Shown piece by piece: positions 2,833 through 34,214 of a stretch of 64,000 nt of DNA. Every line of letters begins with the position of its first letter. The first letter of the stretch is position 1. The position numbers and the translations under genes are program-made. Source of the stretch: Rhizopus arrhizus (Eukaryota; Mucoromycota; Mucoromycetes; Mucorales; Rhizopodaceae); the NCBI GenBank assembly GCA_024220505.1, contig JAKZZE010000010.1:1116001-1180000 (forward strand). The letters are read 5' to 3'. The notes below the pieces were generated by a model. It ran no database searches. It saw only the letters and a program-made list of their open reading frames with translations, and was not told where the DNA came from.

Positions 2833-5800
2833 ATGGATATGCCACTGCAACCAATGCTCTCGGTACACGCTGACCGAGATGAAGAATTTAGACAAACACA
2901 TAATTCATCAGACGAATCAACCATCGAAGAAGTACATCAAAAAGAAGAAACCAACAGTGAAAAAGAATTCTCTAGTCAAAACCATCGCGGTGACTTTGGT
3001 GAAGTCAGTGGAAATGCAGTGAACATTCAAAATGCCATGTCCAACTACGAAGAACTTCGCAGAGAATTAACAACTCAGTCTCGTATGTCACGTATCAAAA
3101 CCACTCATGCCTCGGATGCTGTTGACGTTGCCGAAAAGGGAGATGTCAAGGACTTTGATCTTACCGAATTTTTGAGTGAACAAAATGATCAATCCGCTAA
3201 TGCCGGTATGTATCCCAAACATATGGGCTTGATCTGGAAGAATTTGGTTGTTCAAGGTGTTGGTGCTGATGCAAAGGTGATTCCAACAAATTGGACTTGG
3301 ATCAGAGATACCATAAAGTTCTGGAAATGGGGCAAGCAAGCTGGTAATGATTTCACTATCTTGAAGGGCAACGATGGCTTCTGTAAGGATGGTGAAATGT
3401 TGCTTGTTCTCGGTCGTCCTGGTGCGGGTTGTACAACCTTACTTCGTGTCTTGGCAAACATGCGTGCCTCTTATACAAGCATTGAGGGCACTGTGTCCTA
3501 TGGTGGTATTGAAGCCCAGGAATTTTCCAAGTATTACCGTGGTGAGGTTTGTTATAACGAAGAAGAAGATCTTCATTATCCTACCTTGACCACCAAGCAA
3601 ACTTTGAGCTTTGCCTTGAAGAACAAGACTCCCGGTAAACGTCTTGAAGGTGAAACTAAAAAGGAATTTATCAACAAAATTCTTTACATGCTTGGAAACA
3701 TGCTTGGTTTAACAAAGCAAATGAACACCATGGTCGGTAATGCCTTTGTTCGTGGTCTTTCTGGTGGTGAACGTAAGCGTCTTTCGATTGCTGAACAAAT
3801 GACAACACGTAGTTCTATCAACTGTTGGGATTGTTCTACTCGTGGTCTTGATGCCTCCTCTGCTCTTGATTATGTTCGTTCTCTTCGTATCATGACTGAT
3901 ATCTTACATAAGACTACTGTTTCCACTCTTTATCAAGCATCTGACAGTATTTTCCATCTTTTTGATAAGGTCATGGTTCTTGATGAAGGCCGTTGTATCT
4001 ACTTTGGTCCTACTGCTACTGCCAAGCCTTACTTTGAGGAAATGGGTTTCTACTGTCCTGATCGTAAATCTACCCCTGATTTCTTGACTGGTCTCTGTAA
4101 TATGAATGAACGTGAATACCGTGAGGGTTATAAGAACAAGGTCCCTGTCAACTCGGTTCAATTCGAAAAGGCTTACAAAGAATCTGCTGTTTACAGTGAA
4201 ATGATGCGTGAACGCGATGAATACGAACAAAAAATTAATCAGGATCGTCCTGATGAAAAGTTCCGTCAAGCTTTCGCTGAAGCTCATCAAAAGCATGCTC
4301 CTGTCCGCTCTCCTTATGTCGCTACCTATTATCAACAAGTCAAATCCCTTACCCTCCGTCAATTCCAACTTATCTGGGGTGATAAGGGTGCTTTGATCTC
4401 TCGTTATGGTGGTGTTGTTGTCAAGGGTCTTATCATGGCTTCCGTGTTTTTCAAGATGCCTCAAGATGTTACAGGTGCTTTCTCTCGTGGTGGTTCTTTC
4501 TTGTTCTCACTCTTATTCAATGCTTTAATTGCTCAGGCTGAACTTTCTGCTTTCATGCAAGGTCGTCGTGTATTGGAAAAGCATAAACACTTTGCTCTTT
4601 ACCGTCCTTCTGCTTTCTATATCTCTCAAGTCATTGTCGATGTGCCTCTCGCTATCGTTCAGGTTTTAATCTTTGAAATCTGTGTGTACTTTATGATGGG
4701 TCTCGTACTTGATGCTGGAAAGGTAAATATAAAGCACCTTATTTTTTTTATAGTTTATTAACAAATTTTTCATCTAGTTCTTTACTTTCTTTATTATCTT
4801 GGTTGTGACTAACTTGTGTATGAATGGTTTCTTCCGTTTCTGGGGTGCTGTCTCACCAAACTTCTTCACTGCCTCTCAACTTTCATCTATTTTGTTGATT
4901 GCCGCATTGGTCTACTCTGGTTATCAGATTCCTTATATCAAGATGCACCCTTGGTTAATGTGGATCTACTGGATCAATCCCCTTGCTTACGCCTACAAAG
5001 CCTTGATCTCAAATGAATTGACTGGCATGGAATTCTCTTGTGAAGGCGTTGGATCTATTCCTTACGGCGCCTCATACACCAATGATGCTTACAAGACCTG
5101 TAGTCTTGCTGGTGCTACCCCTGGTGCCAATTCTGTTCTTGGTGATAGTTACCTCCACTATGGTTATGGTTTCGAAACCTGGCAGCGTTGGATTGACTTT
5201 GTTGCTGTCATTCTCTTTTTCATCTTCTTTACTGCTTTGACTGCTCTCGCTATGGAATATGTTGATCTTCAAAAGGAAGGTTCTATTACCAAGGTTTATA
5301 AAGAAGGCAAAGCACCTAAGGAAATGGATGAATCCAAGGCCATGGAACAAGTTGTTCTTGAACAAGATGAAGAAATGGAAGCTGTTACTACCGGTACTAC
5401 CTTCTCTTGGCATCACATTGACTATACTGTCCCCGTTAAGGGCGGTCAACTCAAACTTTTGAATGATATTGGTGGTATTGTCAAGCCTGGTCATCTCACT
5501 GCCTGATGGGTTCCTCTGGTGCTGGTAAGACTACACTTTTGGATGTTTTGGCTCAAAGAAAGGACGATGGTAAGATTGAAGGCCGTATTTACTTGAACGG
5601 TGAACCTCTTGGCCCTGACTTTGAACGTACGACTGGTTACTGTGAAACAAATGGATGTCCATAACCCTAATGCTACTGTTCGTGAAGCCCTCAAGTTCTC
5701 TGCTTACCTTCGTCAACCTGCTGAAGTTCCCAAGGAAGAAAAAGATGCCTATGTTGAACAGATCATTCGTTTGATGGAAATGGAAAAGATTGCTGATGCT

Positions 5801-7284
5801 CTTGTTGGTGATCTTGAAGCTGGTGTTGGTATCTCTGTTGAAGAACGCAAACGTTTGACGATTGCTACTGAACTGGTGGGTAAGCCCAAGCTTCTTTTTC
5901 TTGATGAACCTACATCTGGTCTTGACGCCCAAAGTTCTTACAACATTGTCGCTTCATTCGTAAACTTGCTGATGCTGGTTGGCCAGTTCTCTGTACCATC
6001 CATCAACCTTCTGCTACTTCTTTTCGAGCACTTTGATCACTTGGTTCTCTTGGTCCGTGGTGGTAAGGACTGCCTACTTTGGTGAAATTGGTAAAGATGC
6101 TTCTACAATGATCAGCTATTTTGAAAGAAATGGTGGTCCCAAGTGCTCTCCTAGTGCTAACCCTGCTGAATATATTCTTGAATGTGTTGGTGCTGGTACT
6201 GCTGGCAAGGCTACCAAGGATTGGTCTGAAGTCTGGAAATCTTCCCCTGAAGCCAAGGCCTTGGAAGACGAACTTGAGCAAATTCACCAAACGATCGATC
6301 CCAATCGCAAAAACAACGCTAGCCCATACTCACTTTCTTTCTTCCAACAATTCTGGCTTGTCTACAAGCGTATGAATGTCTCTTGGTGGCGTTGTCCTAC
6401 CTATAACATGGGTCGTCTCTTTAACGTCTGCTTCATTGGTCTTCTTTCTGGTTTCTCTTTCTGGAAGTTGGGTAACACACCTTCTGATATGCAAAATCGT
6501 ATGTTCTCTGTCTTTACCACTCTTTTGATGAGTAACGCTTTGATTATTTTGGCTCAACCTCGTTTCATGCAAGAACGTACCTGGTTCCGTCGTGAATATG
6601 CCTCTCGCTACTATGGCTGGGCACCGTTTGCATTATCCTGTCTCCTTGTAGAAATTCCTTATCTCATCTTCTTCTCCACCATCTTCTTGTTCTGTTTCTA
6701 CTGGACTGCTGGTCTTATGAACACCTCCGATCGTGTTGGTTTCTTCTACATCCACTTTATTGTTTTCTTGTTCTACTCTGTTTCACTCGGTTTCACTATT
6801 GCTGCATTCTCAAGTACTCCTCCTATGGCTGCTGTCATCAATCCTTTCTTTACTTCCATTTTGATCTTGTTTGCCGGTATTATGCAACCTCCTTCTGCTA
6901 TGCCCAAGTTCTGGAGCTCATGGATGTATTGGGTTGACCCTTATCATTATTTGATCGAAGGTCTTGTTGTCAACGTCATGGACAGTATCCCTGTGGTATG
7001 CGATGCTTCTGAATTTGTAAAGATCCCTATTCCCGATGGTACAACTTGTGGTAATACATGGCTGACTTCTTCAATGCTGGTGGTAATGGTTATGTTGAAG
7101 ATAATAATGCAACTGGCTCATGTAACTACTGTAACTACAAATATGGTAATGAATTCTATGAAGAAAGAATTGGTTGGAACTTTAGCATAGATGGCGCGAT
7201 TTCGGTATCCTTTGTGCATACTGTGTCTTTAATATCTTTGCCTTCATGTTCTTTGTATTCTTATTCAGAAAGGCCAAGCGATAA
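2833..7284 (+). pseudogene. PDR-type ABC transporter, copy 1, frameshifted
   Basis: Same gene as 20485-24938, with one intron at 4723-4777. The first half is open and nearly identical to copy 2 (one Thr/Ser change near residue 89). The second half has at least eight single-base indels: losses near 5503, 5950, 7055 and 7186, gains near 5646, 6017 and 6068, and a gain/loss pair near 5556-5563. Two further coding substitutions lie near 6855-6870. As written it would stop just before the second Walker A. The indels fit either pseudogene decay or uncorrected long-read errors; the lack of accompanying substitutions favours errors. Confidence 0.85.
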
Positions 7285-7485: not shown

Positions 7486-8959
7486 CTAGAACTCTGTCTT
7501 TTTTCCAGCATACGCCTTTTTTACGGGTAATTGATGTGGTTGTTTTTGCGGTTGCGGTTGCAGTTTGCTGCTGCTGCTGTTGTTGTATTTGTTGTATTTG
7601 TTGTTGTTGTTGTTGTTGCTGTATATCTTGTGATTGTTGTGTGTTGTCTAGTATGCTTACAGCATCATCGCCAGCAGCACCTATTGAGTTTTTCCTTGCT
7701 TTTTTTACTTCAATGGATTTCCTTCCTTTTTTCTCTTCAGCCACTCTTTTCTTTTCTTGTTTTTCTTCCTCCTTTGCGCCCTCAAATCTATAAATACATA
7801 AAAATATGAGTATTGTTTTTTATGCAATAAATAAAGATGTTTTTTTCTTACCTTCATTTGCCTTTTTTATTGCTGCAGACGCATTTTGCTCAAATTCACT
7901 TGCGGCCTTAAAATCAAGCATTTGGACTCTCTGTTGTCTCTGGAAGCCTCTAGGTACACTTGCTGAAGTTCGGCTACCACTAGGAGTACGCTGAATAGGT
8001 TTACCAGCAGATCTTGGTTTTGGCTTTGTGATAAACAAACTAGATCCGCCTGCAGGAGCAGCTCTTGGTGGAGGTGGTCGAATAGGTCTGGGGAAGCTAC
8101 CAGAGGTAGGTGTGGTTGGGGGTGAAGCAAAGCTGCTGAATGGATTGGGAACATTAGAAGTGGGAGAAGTGAGAATACGCTTCCCCATTCCTGTTATATC
8201 TGCCATACTAGGTCTCTTTTGAGCCGTCATGATGGGTACATCTGCTCCTTGTTCTGCGCGTTCTTCTCTCTCTGCTAGTGCGGCTAGTTGGTCTCCTGGA
8301 CTGATTGCGTGAATACGATCTTCTACATTTTCTGTTAACATACAGTGTCGTGTAGTTGTTGGTTGCCATTGTGTAAAATCAGGCGAGACATTAGATGGCA
8401 CAGGACGTACTTTAGGATCCAATATCATATATTCTGGGGAGTGAAAGCTAATACCATGTTGCTTGACTGTTATAAAAAATTAGATATGAAATTAGGTTAG
8501 TGTTTTTTTATTTATTTATTTACTGAATGACTTGAGTTTGTTCAAGACTGAATCAGAATGATCCCAATGTTTAATATTGTCAATGTTCAATCTTTGTGTT
8601 TCAGGATATGTTTCAAGGATATTAGCCATGATATTTACAAAATCATCGTCGTCAGTATTTGCTATTTTACAGATCTAACAGCATATTGGTAAACAAAAGG
8701 GATCTCAGTAATAAAACTTTTTTCTTCTCAAACCTCTACAAAACTATTTTTCACGGCAGTCAAATCTCTATGCTTAAAGTGCAAGGATGACAATAAAAGG
8801 TCTAATTTGGTTCGTTTATCTAATTCTGTAAAAGAAGCTGCAGCCATTTCAATCACATCGTCTGAAAGTCTTCCAGCAACATGAGCGCTGTCCCAACCAG
8901 TCTTTGGTTCTTTGAAATGACAGATTTATGAAGTCCACTGGCTTTTGTTCATAAGCCGT
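7486..8959 (-). pseudogene. NELF-A-like gene, copy 1, start codon lost
   Basis: Same gene as 25140-26714. The start codon is ACG instead of ATG (base 8958). Exon 1 has single-base losses near 8910 and 8930. Exon 4 has one near 7776, and the glutamine tract is about 100 nt shorter, which throws the C-terminus out of frame. Exon 3 (7852-8466) is intact. Five substitutions between 8830 and 8960 are all transitions. A LINE-2 poly-A tail lies 16 nt upstream of the former start, so the promoter is displaced. Probably non-functional if the sequence is correct. Confidence 0.8.
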
Positions 8960-12729: not shown

Positions 12730-13937
12730 TTATAGACTATCGCAGGCTTCGCTAATTCTGGTCATCAGTGTCTCTTTTTCAAAAAACTTATTCCGCTTCA
12801 CTTTACTCTTGACGACCGACCAGAACTGCTCAATGAGGTTTAACTCTGGTGAATATGGAGGAAGATATACAAATCGATATCCTGAGTTAGTATACTTGCC
12901 TATATCAGATGAGCTATGAATAGGAGCATTATCCATAACAAGGTAATGTCCTTTCATTTCTAGATACTTGTCCATTTCATCAAGAGTAGCCTTTAAAAAG
13001 CTCAGATAATGCCCTGCCACTGTTTCCCTGCTATAAGCATCAATCTCATGTCCAAGCTTTCTCTTTTTAATACGCTTTGGAACTCTCAAACTAACATTAA
13101 TTAAGCCAGTGGCAGAGATTGCACTTAAAATTGATGTTGCGTTTGCTGTGGTTGTAGGCACTGTAACTATTGCAGGAGTTCCTTTCCTTGACCAAGCTAT
13201 ACTTCGTTTCAAATTAACATGAAAGGCTGATTCATCAAGAAAGACACAATTTTTTACAAAGCCCAAGTCAGTATGCTGCCACTTTTGGACCCAATCGTAC
13301 CTTTGTCGAATTTTTTCGTCACTGATTCTTTCCACAGGGTGAAACTGTGTTTGCTTAATGGATAAATTACATTGAGTTATCATGAAGTTATAAACAGTGC
13401 TACGAGAAACATTAAGATCTAAAAATTTTTGCCTTAAACTTTCTGCCAATTCAGTCAAAACAGCGGAAGCATTCTCATCAATGTAATTTAAAAAAAAATT
13501 GCTTATGCTCCTCCCCAAGAATTCGATGTCGATCTGTCTTTTGCTTTATCTCGAAAATGCTTTCGGGATCTTCGTAATAATGTTTGACCCATATCTGGAG
13601 TGCACGAACATGAATGCCTAACTGTCTCGCGGCAGCAGAAGCATTCAGATATTTACTAAAAAAATAAGTTAAAAAAATCTAGTTTTCTCATAATCAGAGT
13701 AAAACGTATAGCGTCGCTTATTGCATAACTCCATGTTAACATCTTCACCATTTGTCTCGTCCGCGGTTCGACGCATTACAGGATTAAATCTTTCTGAATA
13801 TTTGTTCTGTAAAATTGAGTACGAGAACTTATTGTTTCGATAGCAAACAGTTCCTCGTCAACAGCAAGATCCATAAACTCAACTCCGTGCTCATCAACAT
13901 GTCCTTGACCATCTTCGTAAAGAAATTGCATACTCAT
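12730..13937 (-). mobile_element. IS630/Tc1-mariner-type transposase gene, frameshifted
   Basis: The main ORF (13518-12730) has the DDE_3 catalytic pattern: DESAFH (first Asp), DNAPIH (second Asp) and NLIEQFWSVVKSKVKR (third acidic residue, Glu). Upstream, 13655-13490 encodes a helix-turn-helix region (SAAARQLGIHVRALQIW) that joins the DDE frame if one T is removed from the nine-base T run (minus strand) near 13490. An N-terminal segment starts at 13937 and also needs one frame change near 13815. A possible short intron ends near 13660. Terminal inverted repeats were not found. Only a few single-base changes separate it from an intact gene. Confidence 0.85.
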
Positions 13938-14311
13938 TTTGAATATCTGCAAAACAAATTGTAATCAGGAAAAGGAGAGCAAAAGAGAGCAAGAAACTTA
14001 TCAGCTCTTAATAAAAAAATAAAAATGCCAAAGAAAAATTACTAAGCGACATGTAAAAATAATTGGCGACCTCATTTCTGGCCCAAGTGGCATCACTGTT
14101 GGAACGGCAACTTTACTTTTCAAAATGACTGTCTATTAATTAAACTATGGTTAAGCGCTATGAATTAAACCTAGCAGCATCTTTTCCTCTTATTATGTTT
14201 TATTTCATACAGTATTTGATCGATAATTTGTTTTTGCATTTACCGATAAAATTACATCTTGTCTTTCGGACAATTATATTTTTATTAACCGTCAACCATT
14301 TCTTTTATAGT
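13938..14311. other. Gene-free stretch left of LINE-A
   Basis: No gene recognised. AATTGGCGAC at 14061-14070 has its inverted partner at 14310-14319, the second of which overlaps the LINE-A target-site repeat. An open frame from 14147 has no recognisable content. Confidence 0.4.
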
Positions 14312-14325
14312 CGCCAATTATATTT
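14312..14325. repeat. Target-site duplication of LINE-A, 3' side
   Basis: CGCCAATTATATTT occurs here and at 19115-19128, immediately outside the two ends of LINE-A. Removing the element and one copy restores a locus in which TTTATAG(T/C)CGCCAATT is repeated in tandem, which supports the placement. Confidence 0.65.
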
Positions 14326-14514
14326 GTTTAAGCATGATATTTTATTTATTTATGGTCCATTTGAGCGCTAAAATATACAACAAATAAGTGTCCGCCCGGA
14401 CCAGTTCAATCCGTTTGGAAGTGAGTGCTAAGAAAAAAAAACCCCTTCTGGTTCAAGGGTAAAAAATGAGAAAGGCAAGTAGGGTGTATAGAGAGACATT
14501 TGAAGTTAGTTAAA

Positions 14515-17500
14515 TTATCTCAGCCATTCAATTAGTTTTTGGCCATGAGGTGTCTTGCATGGGATGGTTGTATCGTGTTGTAGTTGATCTAATCCATGGA
14601 GGATAGAACATGTAACGGGCCATCGCCAGGTCCAGGACAAAGCAATACTAGAGGGAACAAATGCGCGTGTCGGAAGCATATTCAAAAGGAAAGATATAGG
14701 GTCGGCTATTGTTTCAGGCATACAGAGTCGGCGATGCGTATTGAAGCAACTGATGGCGTGTCGTCCTGAGGCAACTGATGGCGTGTCGTCTTGAGAGGTT
14801 ATTGCTGGGATGACGGGGGTAGGATTTGGGGGCCCCATCCGGTAACCAACCAAGGCGCCATCGTATACATCGACTTCTTTCTTCATGAGTCATTGGTAGC
14901 CACAAGATGGGGTCGAGAGTGATTGTTGGTCGACAGCTGGATAGCAGTTTGGAGTTCTTACCTTGGATCTGTTTTTCAAGGTTAGAGTGGAGGAAATTCT
15001 TTTTATCGCTCTAAAGCCTCTTGCATCTAAGTCGGCTATCGTCGGCGGCATCAATCTCCACAGAGCAGTTTTTGATAGTCGACACCATTGATGGCCTCTT
15101 GTGTACTGTATGTGTGGCGTTAAGAGATATAGTAGTGTGTCCTCAGGCAAAGATAATGAACGAAAGAGGAATTGGGCTTGCAGGATAGCTATCCTTTCTT
15201 TCATTGTGAGTAACTTAGCCAAATGCAGCATCACCTTGATGGATGTTTTTCCAGATGCGCCATAGATCTTACGTATGCATTTGTTTTGTGCCTCTTCTAG
15301 AGTTTTTAGCTGAGTACGATTGAAGCAGTTAATAGCTATGCCGTATTCCATTTGTGGTCGAACTATTTGAACATAAAACCGAGAGCATAGGAGCTTGGAG
15401 AATCCTGAAGGATTTACCCCAATAGAAGATAGAGCATTCATCGTAGACATGGATTTGAGAATATTGTTTTGAACAAGCTTCTCCGGATCAAGGTGACCAC
15501 CTGGTTTGAAGGGTATTCCTAGGTGGTTAAAAGTTGTCGCTTGCGGTATAACTTGATCATAGATCGCATATACTATTGTTTGTGGTTGGTTGTCCAAGAT
15601 GACACATTTTGAAGGATTCCACTGGTATCCCATTTGCATACTGTGTTCTTCGCATTTTAGTAGTAGGTCAACCATTGTTGAGCTATTGGCTATTAAAACC
15701 ACATCATCCGCATAAAGTAAGCAGTTCAAGAGTGGTGCTAACTGTAATGGCGATGTATCCTCCTTTATGGTTTGAGGGCGTAGATATACCGGAAGTTGAT
15801 TTATATATACCGAGTAAAGGTAGGGCGAGAGGATGGATCCTTGGAGTACTCCAGTCTTTGGATAGAAACGCCTAGAAGTTGCGTTTGAGACAAGTACTTC
15901 TATCTGAACTTCGTCAAACAAGTTGCGTAGAAGACCTAGGATTGGAGGCGATATACAATGCTGTAATATCTTCCATATATAGTTTCTGTCAACAGTATCA
16001 TAGGCGGATTTTATATCCAGAATGGCCAGAACGGGCTTGCTATGATAATGTGAACGCAGTATATGGCAGATCTCTGCAAGGCAAAGTGTTTGGTCTAACG
16101 CACCACGGGATTCTCTAAAGCCGCTTTGTGCAATGTCAAGCGAGGGTCCGTTAGTTTGCAAATTATATTGTATGCAACGTTCCAAGATCTTTCTAAAGAT
16201 AGAAGTTAGGCTGATAGGTCGGTAATTACTCGGTTCGTCAGTGGAGCCTTTTTTATATATCGGGACAACTTGAGCAACACGCCAAGATTGTGAAGTATAA
16301 GACCACATCCAATACAAACGGAAGAGCGAAAGAAGAAGCGGTGTCAGTAGACGTTGTATTGGTTGGAGCATTTCATTCCGTAGGTGATCCACACCAGGTG
16401 CTTTCTTTGTTAGTAAGTTTCTAATGGCTTCTTGGATATCCTCTGCAGTAATTGGGCATTCTATCTCAAAGGGTAAAATTGGATTATAAATATTGTTTCT
16501 TTGAACTTCCCTTAGCAATTGTCCCGAAAAAACATTCTCTAGATGTGAAGCCATTATGTCTGCAGCATGCTGAGGGCCTTGTGGTGTAGAGAAAGCTGGT
16601 CGTAGGGTACGATGTTTACGGATACGACTAAGTTTAGAAATAGCTTTTGTGTACTCACCGTTTGCCATCTGATAACAGAACCTACGCCAGTTTTCTGGAC
16701 GTCGTTGGTGAATGAGGCGCCTTAGCGTTGCACGTGCTTGTTGATGTTGTAACCAGAAATGGAGTTTATTCAGACCGTATGCTTTACGCCATTTTCTATA
16801 GTAGTATTCTCTAGCCTCGTATACTTGTCTCATTTCTGCTGTCCAAAAGTCCTTCAATGGATCGGTTTGTTGGAATATGCGTCCACAAATGCTATCCAGT
16901 GACATATATATTGCTTGGCAAATGTCATCATTTAGTTTTTTCAATAAAATCTCTTGCTGACTGTTGATCTTGAGGCTGTTGGTTATTGTTCTCGATCGAC
17001 ATTGATATATTGTTGGCTACATTTTGGAAACTTTGGATATATTGATTCCTTGTTTTGGCTTCTTGCAGCTTTGTGAGCCTCCGAGTGATATGTGGTTGTT
17101 GGCTATGGACTTCTGGTAATATGCTGGGATGAAATGAAAAAGATATCATCTTGTGTGCAGAATCCAAAGAAAGATCTTCCCATATTGTTAAGGAAGGGTT
17201 ACATAGCTCAGTATCACTCATGAAGAAGTCTATGATGCTGCTACCTTGGTGTGCTATAAAGGTGGGGTTTCCATATGCAAGGCATTGGTTCCATAATATG
17301 AAATTATGTTCTTGCAACCATCTATATATCATGTTGCCTCTGGGGTTTATAGAGCTATCTCCAGTATAAGATCCCATTCTTGCATTAAAATCGCCACATA
17401 GGATGGTTTGCTTGACATCGGGTGCGGTACGTGGTAAGGAATCCAGGATTTGACTAACAACTTGATTGTCAAGTGAGGGCGGGAGATAAACACAATGAAC

Positions 17501-17815
17501 GAGAGTGTCTGCGATAATGAAGGAGAGTTTGTATTGTGAAACCGACATGTTGTCGCTCGGTAGATGATGAACATGATATGGGCAGGTTGGATTAATAAGG
17601 AGACTGATACCTTGATGGCCCTTAGTGGCTAGGGGCTGTGTTTTGATGCCATATGCGTAAAATTGTTTCCAGTGAGTAGGGTATTTGTTGGGCGGCAAAA
17701 GCCAAGTTTCAGTAATAAGAAGAACCGAGGAAGATTGGGCAAGATGGAGTATTGGTGACATGACCTGTTTTGCTAGGCCTGTGGCATTGAAGAGAGTAAT
17801 AGTGATTGGACTCAT
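14515..17815 (-). CDS. LINE-A ORF2: endonuclease and reverse transcriptase (frameshifted)
   Basis: The first part (17815-16928, 295 aa) is an APE-type endonuclease: TETW, LCGDFNARMG and the IIDFFMSD box are visible. The second part (16944-14890, about 684 aa) is a reverse transcriptase with ILDIKSAYDTVDR, GVLQGSILSPYLYS and the catalytic LLYADDVVLIA. The two join if one A is dropped from a six-A run near 16940, so either an indel or frameshifting at the A run occurs there. A further frame (14886-14515) carries a C-terminal block (PISFLLNMLPTRAF) that I associate with fungal LINE proteins. A 20-nt direct repeat near 14750-14790 may explain the frame change before it. ORF2 begins with an ATGA overlap with the inferred end of ORF1. 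Confidence 0.85.
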
Positions 17816-20484: not shown

Positions 20485-23400
20485 ATGGATATGCCACTGC
20501 AACCAATGCTCTCGGTACACGCTGACCGAGATGAAGAATTTAGACAAACACATAATTCATCAGACGAATCAACCATCGAAGAAGTACATCAAAAAGAAGA
20601 AACCAACAGTGAAAAAGAATTCTCTAGTCAAAACCATCGCGGTGACTTTGGTGAAGTCAGTGGAAATGCAGTGAACATTCAAAATGCCATGTCCAACTAC
20701 GAAGAACTTCGCAGAGAATTAACAACTCAGTCTCGTATGTCACGTATCAAATCCACTCATGCCTCGGATGCTGTTGACGTTGCCGAAAAGGGAGATGTCA
20801 AGGACTTTGATCTTACCGAATTTTTGAGTGAACAAAATGATCAATCCGCTAATGCCGGTATGTATCCCAAACATATGGGCTTGATCTGGAAGAATTTGGT
20901 TGTTCAAGGTGTTGGTGCTGATGCAAAGGTGATTCCAACAAATTGGACTTGGATCAGAGATACCATAAAGTTCTGGAAATGGGGCAAGCAAGCTGGTAAT
21001 GATTTCACTATCTTGAAGGGCAACGATGGCTTCTGTAAGGATGGTGAAATGTTGCTTGTTCTCGGTCGTCCTGGTGCGGGTTGTACAACCTTACTTCGTG
21101 TCTTGGCAAACATGCGTGCCTCTTATACAAGCATTGAGGGCACTGTGTCCTATGGTGGTATTGAAGCCCAGGAATTTTCCAAGTATTACCGTGGTGAGGT
21201 TTGTTATAACGAAGAAGAAGATCTTCATTATCCTACCTTGACCACCAAGCAAACTTTGAGCTTTGCCTTGAAGAACAAGACTCCCGGTAAACGTCTTGAA
21301 GGTGAAACTAAAAAGGAATTTATCAACAAAATTCTTTACATGCTTGGAAACATGCTTGGTTTAACAAAGCAAATGAACACCATGGTCGGTAATGCCTTTG
21401 TTCGTGGTCTTTCTGGTGGTGAACGTAAGCGTCTTTCGATTGCTGAACAAATGACAACACGTAGTTCTATCAACTGTTGGGATTGTTCTACTCGTGGTCT
21501 TGATGCCTCCTCTGCTCTTGATTATGTTCGTTCTCTTCGTATCATGACTGATATCTTACATAAGACTACTGTTTCCACTCTTTATCAAGCATCTGACAGT
21601 ATTTTCCATCTTTTTGATAAGGTCATGGTTCTTGATGAAGGCCGTTGTATCTACTTTGGTCCTACTGCTACTGCCAAGCCTTACTTTGAGGAAATGGGTT
21701 TCTACTGTCCTGATCGTAAATCTACCCCTGATTTCTTGACTGGTCTCTGTAATATGAATGAACGTGAATACCGTGAGGGTTATAAGAACAAGGTCCCTGT
21801 CAACTCGGTTCAATTCGAAAAGGCTTACAAAGAATCTGCTGTTTACAGTGAAATGATGCGTGAACGCGATGAATACGAACAAAAAATTAATCAGGATCGT
21901 CCTGATGAAAAGTTCCGTCAAGCTTTCGCTGAAGCTCATCAAAAGCATGCTCCTGTCCGCTCTCCTTATGTCGCTACCTATTATCAACAAGTCAAATCCC
22001 TTACCCTCCGTCAATTCCAACTTATCTGGGGTGATAAGGGTGCTTTGATCTCTCGTTATGGTGGTGTTGTTGTCAAGGGTCTTATCATGGCTTCCGTGTT
22101 TTTCAAGATGCCTCAAGATGTTACAGGTGCTTTCTCTCGTGGTGGTTCTTTCTTGTTCTCACTCTTATTCAATGCTTTAATTGCTCAGGCTGAACTTTCT
22201 GCTTTCATGCAAGGTCGTCGTGTATTGGAAAAGCATAAACACTTTGCTCTTTACCGTCCTTCTGCTTTCTATATCTCTCAAGTCATTGTCGATGTGCCTC
22301 TCGCTATCGTTCAGGTTTTAATCTTTGAAATCTGTGTGTACTTTATGATGGGTCTCGTACTTGATGCTGGAAAGGTAAATATAAAGCACCTTATTTTTTT
22401 TTATAGTTTATTAACAAATTTTTCATCTAGTTCTTTACTTTCTTTATTATCTTGGTTGTGACTAACTTGTGTATGAATGGTTTCTTCCGTTTCTGGGGTG
22501 CTGTCTCACCAAACTTCTTCACTGCCTCTCAACTTTCATCTATTTTGTTGATTGCCGCATTGGTCTACTCTGGTTATCAGATTCCTTATATCAAGATGCA
22601 CCCTTGGTTAATGTGGATCTACTGGATCAATCCCCTTGCTTACGCCTACAAAGCCTTGATCTCAAATGAATTGACTGGCATGGAATTCTCTTGTGAAGGC
22701 GTTGGATCTATTCCTTACGGCGCCTCATACACCAATGATGCTTACAAGACCTGTAGTCTTGCTGGTGCTACCCCTGGTGCCAATTCTGTTCTTGGTGATA
22801 GTTACCTCCACTATGGTTATGGTTTCGAAACCTGGCAGCGTTGGATTGACTTTGTTGCTGTCATTCTCTTTTTCATCTTCTTTACTGCTTTGACTGCTCT
22901 CGCTATGGAATATGTTGATCTTCAAAAGGAAGGTTCTATTACCAAGGTTTATAAAGAAGGCAAAGCACCTAAGGAAATGGATGAATCCAAGGCCATGGAA
23001 CAAGTTGTTCTTGAACAAGATGAAGAAATGGAAGCTGTTACTACCGGTACTACCTTCTCTTGGCATCACATTGACTATACTGTCCCCGTTAAGGGCGGTC
23101 AACTCAAACTTTTGAATGATATTGGTGGTATTGTCAAGCCTGGTCATCTCACTGCCTTGATGGGTTCCTCTGGTGCTGGTAAGACTACACTTTTGGATGT
23201 TTTGGCTCAAAGAAAGACGATTGGTAAGATTGAAGGCCGTATTTACTTGAACGGTGAACCTCTTGGCCCTGACTTTGAACGTACGACTGGTTACTGTGAA
23301 CAAATGGATGTCCATAACCCTAATGCTACTGTTCGTGAAGCCCTCAAGTTCTCTGCTTACCTTCGTCAACCTGCTGAAGTTCCCAAGGAAGAAAAAGATG

Positions 23401-24938
23401 CCTATGTTGAACAGATCATTCGTTTGATGGAAATGGAAAAGATTGCTGATGCTCTTGTTGGTGATCTTGAAGCTGGTGTTGGTATCTCTGTTGAAGAACG
23501 CAAACGTTTGACGATTGCTACTGAACTGGTGGGTAAGCCCAAGCTTCTTTTTCTTGATGAACCTACATCTGGTCTTGACGCCCAAAGTTCTTACAACATT
23601 GTTCGCTTCATTCGTAAACTTGCTGATGCTGGTTGGCCAGTTCTCTGTACCATCCATCAACCTTCTGCTACTCTTTTCGAGCACTTTGATCACTTGGTTC
23701 TCTTGGTCCGTGGTGGTAAGACTGCCTACTTTGGTGAAATTGGTAAAGATGCTTCTACAATGATCAGCTATTTTGAAAGAAATGGTGGTCCCAAGTGCTC
23801 TCCTAGTGCTAACCCTGCTGAATATATTCTTGAATGTGTTGGTGCTGGTACTGCTGGCAAGGCTACCAAGGATTGGTCTGAAGTCTGGAAATCTTCCCCT
23901 GAAGCCAAGGCCTTGGAAGACGAACTTGAGCAAATTCACCAAACGATCGATCCCAATCGCAAAAACAACGCTAGCCCATACTCACTTTCTTTCTTCCAAC
24001 AATTCTGGCTTGTCTACAAGCGTATGAATGTCTCTTGGTGGCGTTGTCCTACCTATAACATGGGTCGTCTCTTTAACGTCTGCTTCATTGGTCTTCTTTC
24101 TGGTTTCTCTTTCTGGAAGTTGGGTAACACACCTTCTGATATGCAAAATCGTATGTTCTCTGTCTTTACCACTCTTTTGATGAGTAACGCTTTGATTATT
24201 TTGGCTCAACCTCGTTTCATGCAAGAACGTACCTGGTTCCGTCGTGAATATGCCTCTCGCTACTATGGCTGGGCACCGTTTGCATTATCCTGTCTCCTTG
24301 TAGAAATTCCTTATCTCATCTTCTTCTCCACCATCTTCTTGTTCTGTTTCTACTGGACTGCTGGTCTTATGAACACCTCCGATCGTGTTGGTTTCTTCTA
24401 CATCCACTTTATTGTTTTCTTGTTCTACTCTGTTTCACTCGGTTTCACTATTGCTGCATTCTCAAGTACTCCTCCTATGGCTGCTGTCATCAATCCTTTC
24501 TTTTCTTCCATTTTGTTCTTGTTTGCCGGTATTATGCAACCTCCTTCTGCTATGCCCAAGTTCTGGAGCTCATGGATGTATTGGGTTGACCCTTATCATT
24601 ATTTGATCGAAGGTCTTGTTGTCAACGTCATGGACAGTATCCCTGTGGTATGCGATGCTTCTGAATTTGTAAAGATCCCTATTCCCGATGGTACAACTTG
24701 TGGTAATTACATGGCTGACTTCTTCAATGCTGGTGGTAATGGTTATGTTGAAGATAATAATGCAACTGGCTCATGTAACTACTGTAACTACAAATATGGT
24801 AATGAATTCTATGAAGAAAGAATTGGTTGGAACTTTAGCAATAGATGGCGCGATTTCGGTATCCTTTGTGCATACTGTGTCTTTAATATCTTTGCCTTCA
24901 TGTTCTTTGTATTCTTATTCAGAAAGGCCAAGCGATAA
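20485..24938 (+). CDS. PDR-type (ABCG) full-size ABC transporter
   Basis: Two exons, 20485-22374 and 22431-24938, encode 1465 aa, the usual length of fungal pleiotropic-drug-resistance pumps. The layout is (NBD-TMD)x2. NBD1 has the family's altered Walker A, GRPGAGCTT, near residue 193 (Cys replaces Lys), a good signature LSGGERKR near 308, and NCWDCSTRGLD in place of a normal Walker B. NBD2 near residue 874 has a normal Walker [10 protein letters not shown], a degenerate signature [10 protein letters not shown], and a normal Walker [13 protein letters not shown], near 1000. This complementary degeneracy is normal for the family. About six helices follow each NBD. Expected role: ATP-driven efflux of lipophilic compounds or lipids at the plasma membrane; the substrate cannot be told from sequence. 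Confidence 0.97.
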
Positions 24939-25139: not shown

Positions 25140-26714
25140 CTAGAACTCTGTCTTTTTTCCAGCATACGCCTTTTTTACGGGTAATTGAGGTGGTTGTTTT
25201 TGCGGTTGCGGTTGCGGTTGCTGCTGTTGTTGTATTTGCTGTTGTTGTATTTGCTGTTGTTGTTGCTGTAGATGAAGCTGTTGTAATTGTTGTGGTTGTT
25301 GCTGTTGTTGTGGCTGCTGCTGCTGTTGTTGTATTTGTTGTATTTGTTGTTGTTGTTGTTGTTGTTGTTGCTGTATATCTTGTGATTGTTGTGTGTTGTC
25401 TAGTATGCTTACAGCATCATCGCCAGCAGCACCTATTGAGTTTTTCCTTGCTTTTTTTACTTCAATGGATTTCCTTCCTTTTTTCTCTTCAGCCACTCTT
25501 TTCTTTTCTTGTTTTTCTTCCTCCTTTTGCGCCCTCAAATCTATAAATACATAAAAATATGAGTATTGTTTTTTATGCAATAAATAAAGATGTTTTTTTC
25601 TTACCTTCATTTGCCTTTTTTATTGCTGCAGACGCATTTTGCTCAAATTCACTTGCGGCCTTAAAATCAAGCATTTGGACTCTCTGTTGTCTCTGGAAGC
25701 CTCTAGGTACACTTGCTGAAGTTCGGCTACCACTAGGAGTACGCTGAATAGGTTTACCAGCAGATCTTGGTTTTGGCTTTGTGATAAACAAACTAGATCC
25801 GCCTGCAGGAGCAGCTCTTGGTGGAGGTGGTCGAATAGGTCTGGGGAAGCTACCAGAGGTAGGTGTGGTTGGGGGTGAAGCAAAGCTGCTGAATGGATTG
25901 GGAACATTAGAAGTGGGAGAAGTGAGAATACGCTTCCCCATTCCTGTTATATCTGCCATACTAGGTCTCTTTTGAGCCGTCATGATGGGTACATCTGCTC
26001 CTTGTTCTGCGCGTTCTTCTCTCTCTGCTAGTGCGGCTAGTTGGTCTCCTGGACTGATTGCGTGAATACGATCTTCTACATTTTCTGTTAACATACAGTG
26101 TCGTGTAGTTGTTGGTTGCCATTGTGTAAAATCAGGCGAGACATTAGATGGCACAGGACGTACTTTAGGATCCAATATCATATATTCTGGGGAGTGAAAG
26201 CTAATACCATGTTGCTTGACTGTTATAAAAAATTAGATATGAAATTAGGTTAGTGTTTTTTTATTTATTTATTTACTGAATGACTTGAGTTTGTTCAAGA
26301 CTGAATCAGAATGATCCCAATGTTTAATATTGTCAATGTTCAATCTTTGTGTTTCAGGATATGTTTCAAGGATATTAGCCATGATATTTACAAAATCATC
26401 GTCGTCAGTATTTGCTATTTTACAGATCTAACAGCATATTGGTAAACAAAAGGGATCTCAGTAATAAAACTTTTTTCTTCTCAAACCTCTACAAAACTAT
26501 TTTTCACGGCAGTCAAATCTCTATGCTTAAAGTGCAAGGATGACAATAAAAGGTCTAATTTGGTTCGTTTATCTAATTCTGTAAAAGAAGTTGCAGCCAT
26601 TTCAATCACATCGTCTGAAAGTTTTCCAGCAACATGAGCACTGTCCCAACCAGTCTTTGGTTCTTTTGAAATGACAGATTTTATGAAGTCCACTGGTTTT
26701 TGTTCATAAGCCAT
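25140..26714 (-). CDS. NELFA: NELF-A-like protein (negative elongation factor subunit A)
   Basis: Four exons on the minus strand: 26714-26487, 26427-26277, 26219-25605 and 25540-25140; 464 aa, all junctions in frame. The N-terminal helical domain (residues about 10-130) aligns by eye with metazoan NELF-A: KLDLLLSSLHF matches KLKLLLGTLHL, and VNIMANILETYPETQRLN matches the human block VADILKSFPDTGSLN. A proline-rich middle carries a QMLDF motif at the place of human VKLLDI, followed by a lysine-rich helix and a long Gln tract (CAA/CAG) up to a basic C-terminus. NELF-A binds NELF-C and RNA polymerase II to hold promoter-proximal pauses. It runs convergent to the ABC gene, 200 bp away. The family call is from remembered homology and not from a search. 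Confidence 0.8.
25205..25375 (-). repeat. Polyglutamine-coding triplet repeat
   Basis: About 170 nt of CAA/CAG-type codons (minus strand), with Ile, Pro and Leu interruptions, near the C-terminus of the NELF-A-like gene. The copy 1 tract at 7551-7622 is only about 72 nt. Confidence 0.85.
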
Positions 26715-26806: not shown

Positions 26807-28192
26807 TTATTTGTAACCTTTGATAAAGCATAAATGTACATCAGATACATCGTCAATAATACGAGCATAATTGTTTTCTATTGCTTCCTGACGTGTGTAA
26901 AGATATGATTGATATTCTTCAAAAGTAGTATATGTAATAGATTCGCACTCTTGTAAATACACATCTCGTAAATTGCTACTATCTTCGGTAGGAGGTTGTG
27001 TTGTGAATGCAATACTATAGATCATAACATCGACCAAGTGAGGATGATAATTAATGAGATTAGGTATAAAATCACTAGATAACAGTAGTCTTGATGTGGA
27101 TATGTAAAGTGATTTTAATTCTGGCATGCATATGGCAAAATACGACCAAACATGTGAAGGGGCATGACAAGGAAACCTCTCAAACTCTCTTGAAATTGGG
27201 TAATGCTTTCTAAATGCAATTGAGAGGACGCGCATTTTTTGAAGGCTAGTGATTGCCATCACACAACGTGCAACCTGTTCAGGGTAATAATCGTGTATAA
27301 CAATAGCTAATTTTTCTAAAAGAGGCGAAGATTGAGCGATTTGTTCCAGTGTACAGCAGTTGATAGAGTCCGTGAGTGCTAATTGGGTTAAATGACATGC
27401 AGCTGTGATGTATATGTGTTGATGTATCACCGTCGCTCTTGAATTTTGAAAGTGAAACGGATGAAGGAAATCAAGGTGAGATATTGCCAATAAATGAGTA
27501 ATGTTTGTTTTAACTCGTGCTTTGGGTTCAATCAAGACTTGTCGAAAAAGAAACCGTCTTAAATTAGGATGAAGTAATTCAATTATGACTTTTAATGTAT
27601 CTTCTTTAATTGTACAGTCTACTAGAGCTAAAGAAGTAAGTTTTGGCTTGTATTGGTAGATGGCAGCGAAATCATCAAAGGTGTCTTGGCAATGGCTGAT
27701 AAAGAGCTCCTTCAAGTGAGGACAGTATTTGAAGAAATACCTCAATCCATAATGTTCTGTTCTAGGTGATGGGTGAAAGTCGATACGTAATGCTCTTAGA
27801 TTAGGCACAAGTTGAGCCATCAGACTTGAGTTGACTAAATCAAAATGGGGACCGGTTGTCAAGTTTCTGTATAAAGAACATATATGGTCACCAAGGACAA
27901 AACTAGATGATAACGCAGTAGGTGTAGAAAGTAAATCTGTAGCCATTTGAATAGCTTCTCCCTTCTTTACGTCGTACTCTCGGGGTAAAATGAATTCTTT
28001 GTGTTTCCAAAGAAAGGGTGCACAGAGTTTATACAGACGTTGACAGGATAAAGCAATATATTTCAAATGTACATAATTGTGTTCAGGGTAGCACCAACCA
28101 AGAAAATCTGCCTCATCGTATGGCTTTATAGAGGATAGATGAATGATATGTTCAATTATTTCGCTTGGCAAACTTAAGAGACAGGACTTCAT
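26807..28192 (-). CDS. F-box protein with leucine-rich-repeat-like body
   Basis: Single exon, 461 aa. The N-terminus (LSLPSEIIEHIIHLSS, then YIALSCQRLYKLCAPFLWKH, residues about 5-65) is an F-box, which binds Skp1 in SCF ubiquitin ligases. The remaining 400 residues form irregular leucine-rich repeats (for example LKELFISHC, LTSLALVDCTI, LKSLYISTSRLL) that would recognise a substrate. This is a common type in Mucoromycota, where F-box/LRR families are large. The target is unknown. It ends 93 bp from the NELF-A start on the same strand. Bases 27424-27499 of this gene were copied into the chimeric fragments at 2370-2445 and about 20020-20095. Confidence 0.9.
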   Translation of the reverse strand: MKSCLLSLPSEIIEHIIHLSSIKPYDEADFLGWCYPEHNYVHLKYIALSCQRLYKLCAPFLWKHKEFILPREYDVKKGEAIQMATDLLSTPTALSSSFVLGDHICSLYRNLTTGPHFDLVNSSLMAQLVPNLRALRIDFHPSPRTEHYGLRYFFKYCPHLKELFISHCQDTFDDFAAIYQYKPKLTSLALVDCTIKEDTLKVIIELLHPNLRRFLFRQVLIEPKARVKTNITHLLAISHLDFLHPFHFQNSRATVIHQHIYITAACHLTQLALTDSINCCTLEQIAQSSPLLEKLAIVIHDYYPEQVARCVMAITSLQKMRVLSIAFRKHYPISREFERFPCHAPSHVWSYFAICMPELKSLYISTSRLLLSSDFIPNLINYHPHLVDVMIYSIAFTTQPPTEDSSNLRDVYLQECESITYTTFEEYQSYLYTRQEAIENNYARIIDDVSDVHLCFIKGYK

Positions 28193-31935: not shown

Positions 31936-34214
31936 TTAAAAACGCAAATCCCAATCAATCTTGGGACCCAGCTTGGGTAATACTTCAACTACTGTGTGCA
32001 TGTCCTTGTCGCCTCTACCAGAAAGACAGATCACAATGTCCTTATCCTTTGGGAGCTCTTTGGCTAATTCGATAGCAGCGTAGACAGCATGAGAGGATTC
32101 TAAAGCAGGGATGATACCTTCCAATTGAGTCAATTTTCTAAACCCAATCAAACATTGAGCATCGTCTGCCACGCGATATTCAGCTCTTCCACAATCCTTC
32201 AAGAAAGCATGTTCAGGGCCAACACCAGGGTAATCTAAACCGGCACTAACAGAGTGTGTTTCAATGATTTGACCTTTCGTGTCTTGCAAGAGATAAGTAC
32301 GAGTACCATGAAGAACACCAGGTGTTCCCATAGATAAAGTAGCAGAGTGCTTTTCTGTATGAACACCATCACCACCGGCTTCAACACCAACTATGCGAAC
32401 AGACTCTTCTTCAACAAAAGGATGGAACATACCGATCGCATTAGAACCACCACCCACACAGGCAACCACAGCATCAGGCAGCTTGCCGGCCTTTTCAAGC
32501 ATTTGACGTTTTGTTTCTTTACCAATCACAGATTGGAATTCACGAACGATCATAGGGAATGGATGAGGACCAATGGCTGAACCAACAAGATAATGTGTGG
32601 TGGATACATTAGCAACCCAATCACGCATGGCTTCATTGATGGCATCTTTCAATGTTCTAGAGCCATCCTTGACAGGAATAACAGTAGCACCTAACATTCT
32701 CATACGGAACACATTCAAGGCTTGACGACGACAATCCTCTTCGCCCATGTAGACACAACATTCCAAACCAAATTTGGCACATACAGTAGCAGTAGCCACA
32801 CCATGTTGTCCAGCACCAGTTTCGGCAATGATACGCTTCTTACCAAGTCGCTTGGCTAACAAAATTTGACCTACAGCGTTATTGATCTTGTGAGAACCTG
32901 TATGATTCAAATCTTCACGCTTTAACCAGATGCGAGCACCACCTGTTTCCTCAGTCAATCGGCTGGCGAGCTGGAGTTGAGAAGGACGAGAGATATAGTC
33001 GTAATAAGATTCAAATTCGGCTTTGAAAGCAGGATCATTGATGGCATCGATAAAGCATGTTTCAAGTTGGGTAAGACAGTCCACAAGGGCTTCAGGCACA
33101 TAGGCACCACCAAAGTTACCAAATCGAGTTTGCATTTGATAAAAATTCTTGATGTCGTCGGGTGAGAAAGGTCCACGACCAGCAGCATCATTCACTTCCA
33201 AATCAGCTTGACCAGCTTCACTGGCGGCATAGGTTTCGATAGGCTGTTTACGTCCACTGACTTCAGCAACATATTGTTGGAGAACTTCAGAAGTATTTTG
33301 TTTGTTTTCAAGAGCTTCTCTAGTCAAAGTAATCAAACGAGATCCAATGACAACACCTTCAGCATGGGCACCTACTTGAAGAAAGTGTTCACGAGTAGAC
33401 ACACCAAAGCCAACAGCCAATGGAACGGAGGTATATTTCTTAATACGGGCAATAATTTCAGGTAATTCTGTGTTGACACTATCTCTGGCACCAGTAACGC
33501 CCATACGTGAGATGACGTAAATAAAAGAATCTGCAATGGTGGCCAAGAGTTCAATACGCTTCTCGGTAGTGGAAGGTGCGATCAAGGGGACATAGGCAAG
33601 ACCATACTTGTAACAAATGCTACGGAAGCTGTGTGATTCTTCAGGTGGTAAGTCAACCATGATATATCCATTCACACCTGCTTCCTTACAGTCTTGTATC
33701 ATCTTTTCTTCTCCATAAGCAAGGATAGGGTTATAATATCCCATAAAGACAACAGGAATCTTTAAACCCTTAGCACGAGCATCACGAACCATTTGAAGAC
33801 ACATGGGAATATCTGTGCCATGTTTGAGTGATTGCTAATGTTCGAGAAATGTCAAAAATTGATCGCAATAAACTCATAAAAAAATACTTACTGTGCTTGC
33901 ATATTGAATGGTAGGTCCATCAGCCAAAGGATCGGTAAAGGGAATACCTTAAGTCTCATATAAGTTTCGATGTTTTTTCTTTGTTTATTATCCTCTTTGT
34001 TTATTACCTAGTTCAACAACATCAGCACCACCTCTTTCCAAAGCTAATAAGTTTTCTACAGTTTCAGCAGGTGAAGGATATCCAGCAGTTATGAAATTAA
34101 CAAATGCGGGTCGGTCTAAAAAAATAGAATCGTAAGTCAATGCCATCAATGATAATATCTATGTTTACTTTGTTCTTTTGCAGTTTTAAACGCGTTGCGA
34201 AGTCCAGCAGACAT
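31936..34214 (-). CDS. TRP5: Tryptophan synthase, fused alpha-beta
   Basis: Four exons: 34214-34169, 34115-34008, 33947-33892 and 33834-31936; 702 aa, close to yeast Trp5. The alpha part (residues 1-260) has [24 protein letters not shown] with the catalytic Asp, and GYYNPIL. A short linker leads to the beta part with the PLP lysine in [13 protein letters not shown], the glycine-rich [12 protein letters not shown] that holds the cofactor phosphate, and a C-terminal CLSGRGDKD. It makes tryptophan from indole-3-glycerol phosphate and serine, channelling indole between the sites. The three short 5' exons are easily missed if only the large exon is annotated. Confidence 0.97.

Follow-up and report, generated by a model that had tools for sequence, protein, structure and literature searches.

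The NELF-A locus

In the mould Rhizopus arrhizus (Mucorales, Mucoromycota), a gene whose product bears the N-terminal domain of NELF-A lies on contig JAKZZE010000010.1, within a stretch of 64,000 nucleotides (positions 1,116,001 to 1,180,000) that is hereafter called the window. NELF-A belongs to the complex that, in animals, halts RNA polymerase shortly after initiation. The coordinates, the number of exons and the product length of 464 amino acids proposed for this gene in the initial annotation are correct (Table 1). The spliced frame is free of stops, and the deposited R. arrhizus protein G6F37_010508 (432 amino acids) agrees with the product in every one of the first 396 residues and of the last 15. 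This identity supports the splice model, including intron 1 with its unusual donor. The differences between the two proteins are confined to a glutamine (Gln) tract and one adjoining residue.

Table 1. Features of the NELF-A locus and its surroundings, in window positions
Feature	Position	Strand	Remarks
NELF-A gene	25140..26714	(-)	4 exons, 464 aa; stop-free splice model
Exon 1	26714-26487	(-)	first part of NELF-A_N domain; holds Trp23 (human W24)
Intron 1	26428..26486	(-)	59 bp, GT..AG; donor GTTTGA unusual
Exon 2	26427-26277	(-)	remainder of NELF-A_N domain (DDDDFV...LNIDN); Phe88 where human has W89
Intron 2	26220..26276	(-)	57 bp
Exon 3	26219-25605	(-)	post-domain region with PTTTRHCML, Pro-rich linker, PRGFQRQQRVQMLDF motif, start of basic helix
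Intron 3	25541..25604	(-)	64 bp
Exon 4	25540-25140 (incl. stop)	(-)	remaining basic helix, Gln tract, C-terminus
Tandem repeat	1-26732, and left of the window from C2:1101106 onward		three NELF-A copies, two broken
Second, broken NELF-A copy	7486..8959	(-)	approximate span from alignments
Third, broken NELF-A copy	left of window		
PDR/CDR-type ABC (ATP-binding cassette) transporter gene	20485-24938 and 2833-7190		Pfam on right copy
Transposon genes within repeat	12730-17815		DDE transposase, reverse transcriptase, endonuclease-reverse transcriptase
461-aa protein gene	26807-28192	(-)	just upstream of NELF-A; weak leucine-rich-repeat match
Tryptophan synthase alpha- and beta-type domains	31936-33804		one fused reading frame

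Identity of the N-terminal domain

A Pfam profile search of the product identifies NELF-A_N (PF23553) with 56.6 bits, against a curated cut-off of 27 (E 3.6e-15), a match far beyond chance. The motifs from which the gene had been recognised are present, and two of them, KLDLLLSSLHF and VNIMANILETYPETQRLN, fall inside this significant domain. Profile, sequence and fold searches point to NELF-A and to nothing else convincing, and no other family was matched better by profile. The N-terminal domain is predicted to be helical, as in human NELF-A (PDB 5L3X and 6GML), and a fold search with the predicted model again returns NELF-A. Both checks suggested alongside the initial annotation, the profile search and the structural comparison, hence lead to the same family. 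A first structure prediction, made from six fungal sequences, was too poor to be used (mean predicted local distance difference test, pLDDT, of 47) and was set aside.

The search in the opposite direction, from NELF-A to the genome, succeeds in an indirect form only. The NELF-A_N model finds three places in the genome, all of them below the cut-off of 27, and the intact locus scores 24.7 bits because a single exon carries only part of the domain. A mixed fungal-human profile brings vertebrate NELF-A and the fungal proteins together in one list (among the best 120 of 536 matches, which are mostly vertebrate). Thus, the locus is recovered and the two groups are joined, but the genomic score itself stays under the cut-off.

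Partner subunits and their contacts

The same genome was searched for the partners of NELF-A, as had been proposed, and both NELF-B and NELF-C/D were found at full length. The NELF-B gene (L011) has six exons and encodes 574 amino acids without a stop; its product matches COBRA1 in Pfam (6.4e-39) and the corresponding entry in the PDB (5.7e-41). Similarly, the NELF-C gene (L012), with nine exons, encodes a stop-free protein of 566 amino acids that matches TH1 in Pfam (4.8e-85) and the PDB (4.5e-60). Since NELF-B and NELF-C are encoded alongside NELF-A, the option of a NELF-A-only derivative, also raised at the outset, is not favoured. Domain matches to Spt5-NGN (3.6e-20) and Spt4 (5.6e-9) are present as well; these are not gene models, and each crosses one stop, presumably in an intron.

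The contacts between the subunits were read at reference positions taken from the human NELF structure described in PMC4940160. The human tryptophan W24, which inserts into NELF-C, is Trp in 8 of the 8 fungal proteins that reach this column, R. arrhizus included. The second inserted residue, W89, is Trp in seven of nine fungal proteins and Phe in R. arrhizus and R. microsporus, a conservative change.

Fungal relatives

Three protein searches, each of which scored only the approximately 8000 candidates with most words in common, yielded 11 fungal or fungal-like proteins (P0001-P0010 and P0036). One of them, P0001, is the same gene in another isolate. The NELF-A_N domain is annotated (precomputed) in 9 of the 11, and the two that lack it, P0003 and P0010, are short models. 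Ten come from Rhizopus (three species), Sporodiniella, Absidia, Halteromyces, Phascolomyces and Umbelopsis (three), genera that belong to the Mucorales or Umbelopsidales according to a taxonomy look-up of one species per genus. The R. arrhizus product is 26-64% identical to five other fungal proteins, as against about 20% to vertebrate ones. The Phascolomyces protein P0005, of the same family and phylum as the R. arrhizus protein, bears the UniRef label 'NELF-A N-terminal dom...'. A NELF-A domain label on a Mucorales protein was, therefore, already in the database before the present analysis; it is a database label alone, silent on a fungal NELF complex.

The region beyond the domain

Past the N-terminal domain, the resemblance to vertebrate NELF-A is suggestive only, and it concerns two blocks. 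When the post-domain region is taken alone (8 fungal and 15 vertebrate proteins, with boundaries set after inspection of the alignment), 17 columns align at the HFxL segment, better than in 199 of 200 column shuffles. Here, PTTTRHCML of exon 3 is comparable to PPVKHFQL of vertebrates. The second block is LLD-like: all 11 fungal proteins have the QMLDF motif in the form QM(L/I)D(F/I), and a longer form, P(K/R)GFxxxxx(V/I)QM(L/I)D, shares an alignment of 12 columns with vertebrate KERGVKLLDIS (11 fungal and 15 vertebrate proteins). Shuffles did as well in 5 of 200 trials for the segment that follows the crystallised part and in 8 of 200 for the whole remainder. With a simple score, the expected place came first in 5 of 5 proteins, yet 154-373 of 1000 shuffles equalled it; in a second block test it came first in five of six, with 421-820 of 2000 shuffles equal. 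When both blocks were required in sequence, 271-721 of 2000 shuffles did as well. The structure model is of low confidence over the extended region (human residues 111-182, which wrap NELF-C). Of the C-terminal order proposed for the gene, QMLDF followed by a basic helix, the motif recurs in the 11 fungal proteins but resembles the KLLD motif of vertebrates only weakly.

It had also been proposed that the metazoan C-terminal tentacle is replaced by a long Gln tract. The vertebrate C-terminal block around TANKVTRPEKALILGFMAGS indeed has no counterpart in an alignment of nine fungal proteins. The window gene has a longest Gln run of 10 residues, the deposited R. arrhizus protein one of 9, and their richest 40 residues hold 32 and 26 Gln, respectively, as against 17 in R. 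microsporus and 6-8 in the eight remaining fungal proteins long enough to cover this region (P0010 stops short of it). In sharks, two NELF-A proteins with the vertebrate block have 23 (P0084) and 21 (P0096) Gln in 40 residues. As the long run is limited to Rhizopus and block-bearing sharks are Gln-rich too, the tract was rejected as a stand-in for the tentacle: the fungal tail differs in sequence from that of vertebrates, but the Gln run is no substitute. In the sharks, the Gln-rich stretches sit immediately before the block.

The tract (window 25140-25400) is 32 residues longer than in the deposited protein, and its length varies also in two broken copies of the gene. In the deposited protein it is about as short as in these copies, though the first 396 residues are those of the intact copy.

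Tandem repeat and neighbouring genes

A tandem repeat, its units about 99% identical and recurring every 17.6 kb or so, has the intact gene at its right end. The repeat ends 18 bp upstream of the start codon of the intact gene, beside a poly-A run. Among the three NELF-A copies, the frame is intact in the one described here. Both broken copies have the same altered start codon and lack the same single base in exon 1, and one of them has two further single-base deletions. Near the gene, the two copies differ from each other only by gaps, so some of these gaps may be sequencing errors. An ABC transporter gene adjoins each NELF-A copy in the window, and the left of these two transporter copies falls into a larger number of reading frames than the right. 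The fused tryptophan synthase to the right of the repeat is of the fungal type.

Interpretation

The reading that is preferred here, at a probability of roughly 0.72, is that the gene encodes a genuine NELF-A that the Mucoromycota have inherited vertically, and that its product would work with the NELF-B and NELF-C of the genome as a three-subunit core NELF. The NELF-A domain, the full-length partner genes, the one anchor that is still Trp (the other being Phe) and the Spt5/Spt4 matches support the suggestion that early-diverging fungi may keep a pausing complex.

Several observations weigh against this reading. The structure model is not independent, as 16 of its 25 alignment rows are vertebrate NELF-A. 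A local profile alignment of the longer segment stops at residue 129, and the similarity past residue 130 is weak. By simple score, the expected place of the HFxL block ranks first in only two of six vertebrate proteins, and 179-1132 of 2000 shuffles score equally well. Whole-tail profiles fail to align at the LLD-like motif; their best alignment lies elsewhere, and 8 of 60 shuffles do as well (13 of the 17 chosen vertebrate proteins, four having been lost to the cutting pattern; two of the 13 are without the LLD form). NELF-E was not found when the genome was compared with two pieces of human NELF-E, its RNA recognition motif (RRM) and its C-terminal part, a query that leaves out the NELF-B-binding helix. 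This search gave 20 places with E values no higher than 10, led by one at 2.7e-10, and the two best were checked back: the first is closest to yeast NAM8 (1.1e-32), with NELF-E lower in the same list (1.2e-11), and the second carries two RRMs. HEXIM and 7SK likewise had no match in the genome; control genomes were also without a match, so this does not show absence.

The surfaces that meet nucleic acid belong with these points. Only one of nine positions in basic patches 1-4 of NELF-C is Lys or Arg in R. arrhizus (K315, now Arg); a second is His, two are deleted and the remaining five hold residues of other kinds, a count that comes from one pairwise alignment of the R. arrhizus protein. The position of K494 (patch 5) is Arg. 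In patch 4 of NELF-A (K146, K161, K168, R175), one of four positions is basic in R. arrhizus, in a region of uncertain alignment, and the positions of R65 and R66 are only partly basic in fungi. From the Trp and Phe anchors and these residue counts, therefore, the contact between subunits looks partly conserved, unlike the surface for nucleic acid.

The loss of eight of the nine basic residues in NELF-C and the failure to detect NELF-E could also mean that a true NELF-A/B/C complex has a main task in the Mucoromycota other than promoter-proximal pausing, such as ending short transcripts, blocking TFIIS or acting outside the nucleus. A cytoplasmic, pausing-independent function of mammalian NELFB is described in PMC10591015. 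Such a shift of role is unlikely, since three core subunits are kept, one anchor is Trp and the other Phe, and Spt5 and Spt4 are matched in the genome, all of which fits a role with RNA polymerase II (Pol II); no sequence feature pointing to a different role was seen. Far less probable still, to the point of being negligible, is animal contamination or a recent gene transfer from an animal. It would agree with the designation of NELF as metazoan-specific (PMC11881899), but the introns are short, the gene shares a 1.9-Mb contig with the fused tryptophan synthase, a near-identical Rhizopus protein is deposited, and the five other fungal proteins are closer to the product than vertebrate ones are.

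If the gene indeed encodes a NELF-A of a core complex, the human structures suggest how it would act. Fungal NELF-A would clasp the NELF-C horseshoe, with NELF-B bound to its other face. The complex would then dock close to the secondary channel of a Pol II that carries DSIF and is in early elongation, and slow the polymerase until a Cdk9-type kinase releases it. The NELF-AC lobe of the human structures is able to obstruct this channel (PMC11881899), and by analogy the fungal core, together with DSIF, might do so more weakly. With NELF-E undetected and the majority of the basic NELF-C patch residues lost, pausing may be expected to be weaker or more dispersed than its animal counterpart, and direct contact of the complex with nascent RNA to be slight. 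According to PMC11482795, pausing indexes are higher in species with NELF-B and NELF-C/D than in those without any NELF.

Compared with its human counterpart, the R. arrhizus protein is alike in the sequence and predicted fold of the N-terminal domain, in the Trp at W24 and, suggestively, in the order of an HFxL-like segment, a basic-hydrophobic LLD-like motif and a basic helix. It is unlike it in the missing C-terminal block, the Phe of Rhizopus at W89, the partly basic R65/R66 and the long Gln tract. The NELF-A and NELF-C homologues of Dictyostelium and Chlorella, as described in PMC4940160, also place core subunits outside animals and diverge beyond the crystallised core; they are non-fungal, and the likeness is one of description, not of sequence comparison. 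Further, NELF-B and NELF-C/D are stated to be widespread in eukaryotes (PMC11482795). Because these homologues and the labelled Mucorales domain were already known, the R. arrhizus NELF extends a known family with a wider message and is not a new kind of complex.

The literature speaks of NELF homologues as absent in fungi (PMC8524862) and of NELF as metazoan-specific (PMC11881899), and no description of NELF in the Mucoromycota was found in the open-licence literature (supplementary tables were outside the scope). The presence of NELF-A, NELF-B and NELF-C in the genome of one culturable mould contradicts both statements. The HDAg-like domain of NELF-A is reported in PMC11482795 only from animals and Capsaspora, a limit that a fungal NELF makes testable; if the fungal LLD-like match is true, the origin of this region would be older than that distribution. 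A bolder proposal, tentative and rather doubtful at present, is that the fungal-animal ancestor already had NELF-A/B/C, that NELF-A by then carried its C-terminal motif for Pol II binding, which would be no addition of the animal side, that the Mucoromycota keep regulated pausing without NELF-E, HEXIM and 7SK, and that yeasts lost NELF. With a core NELF and no NELF-E detected, this fungus, which can be grown and altered, would offer a natural experiment on what the core alone does to pausing.
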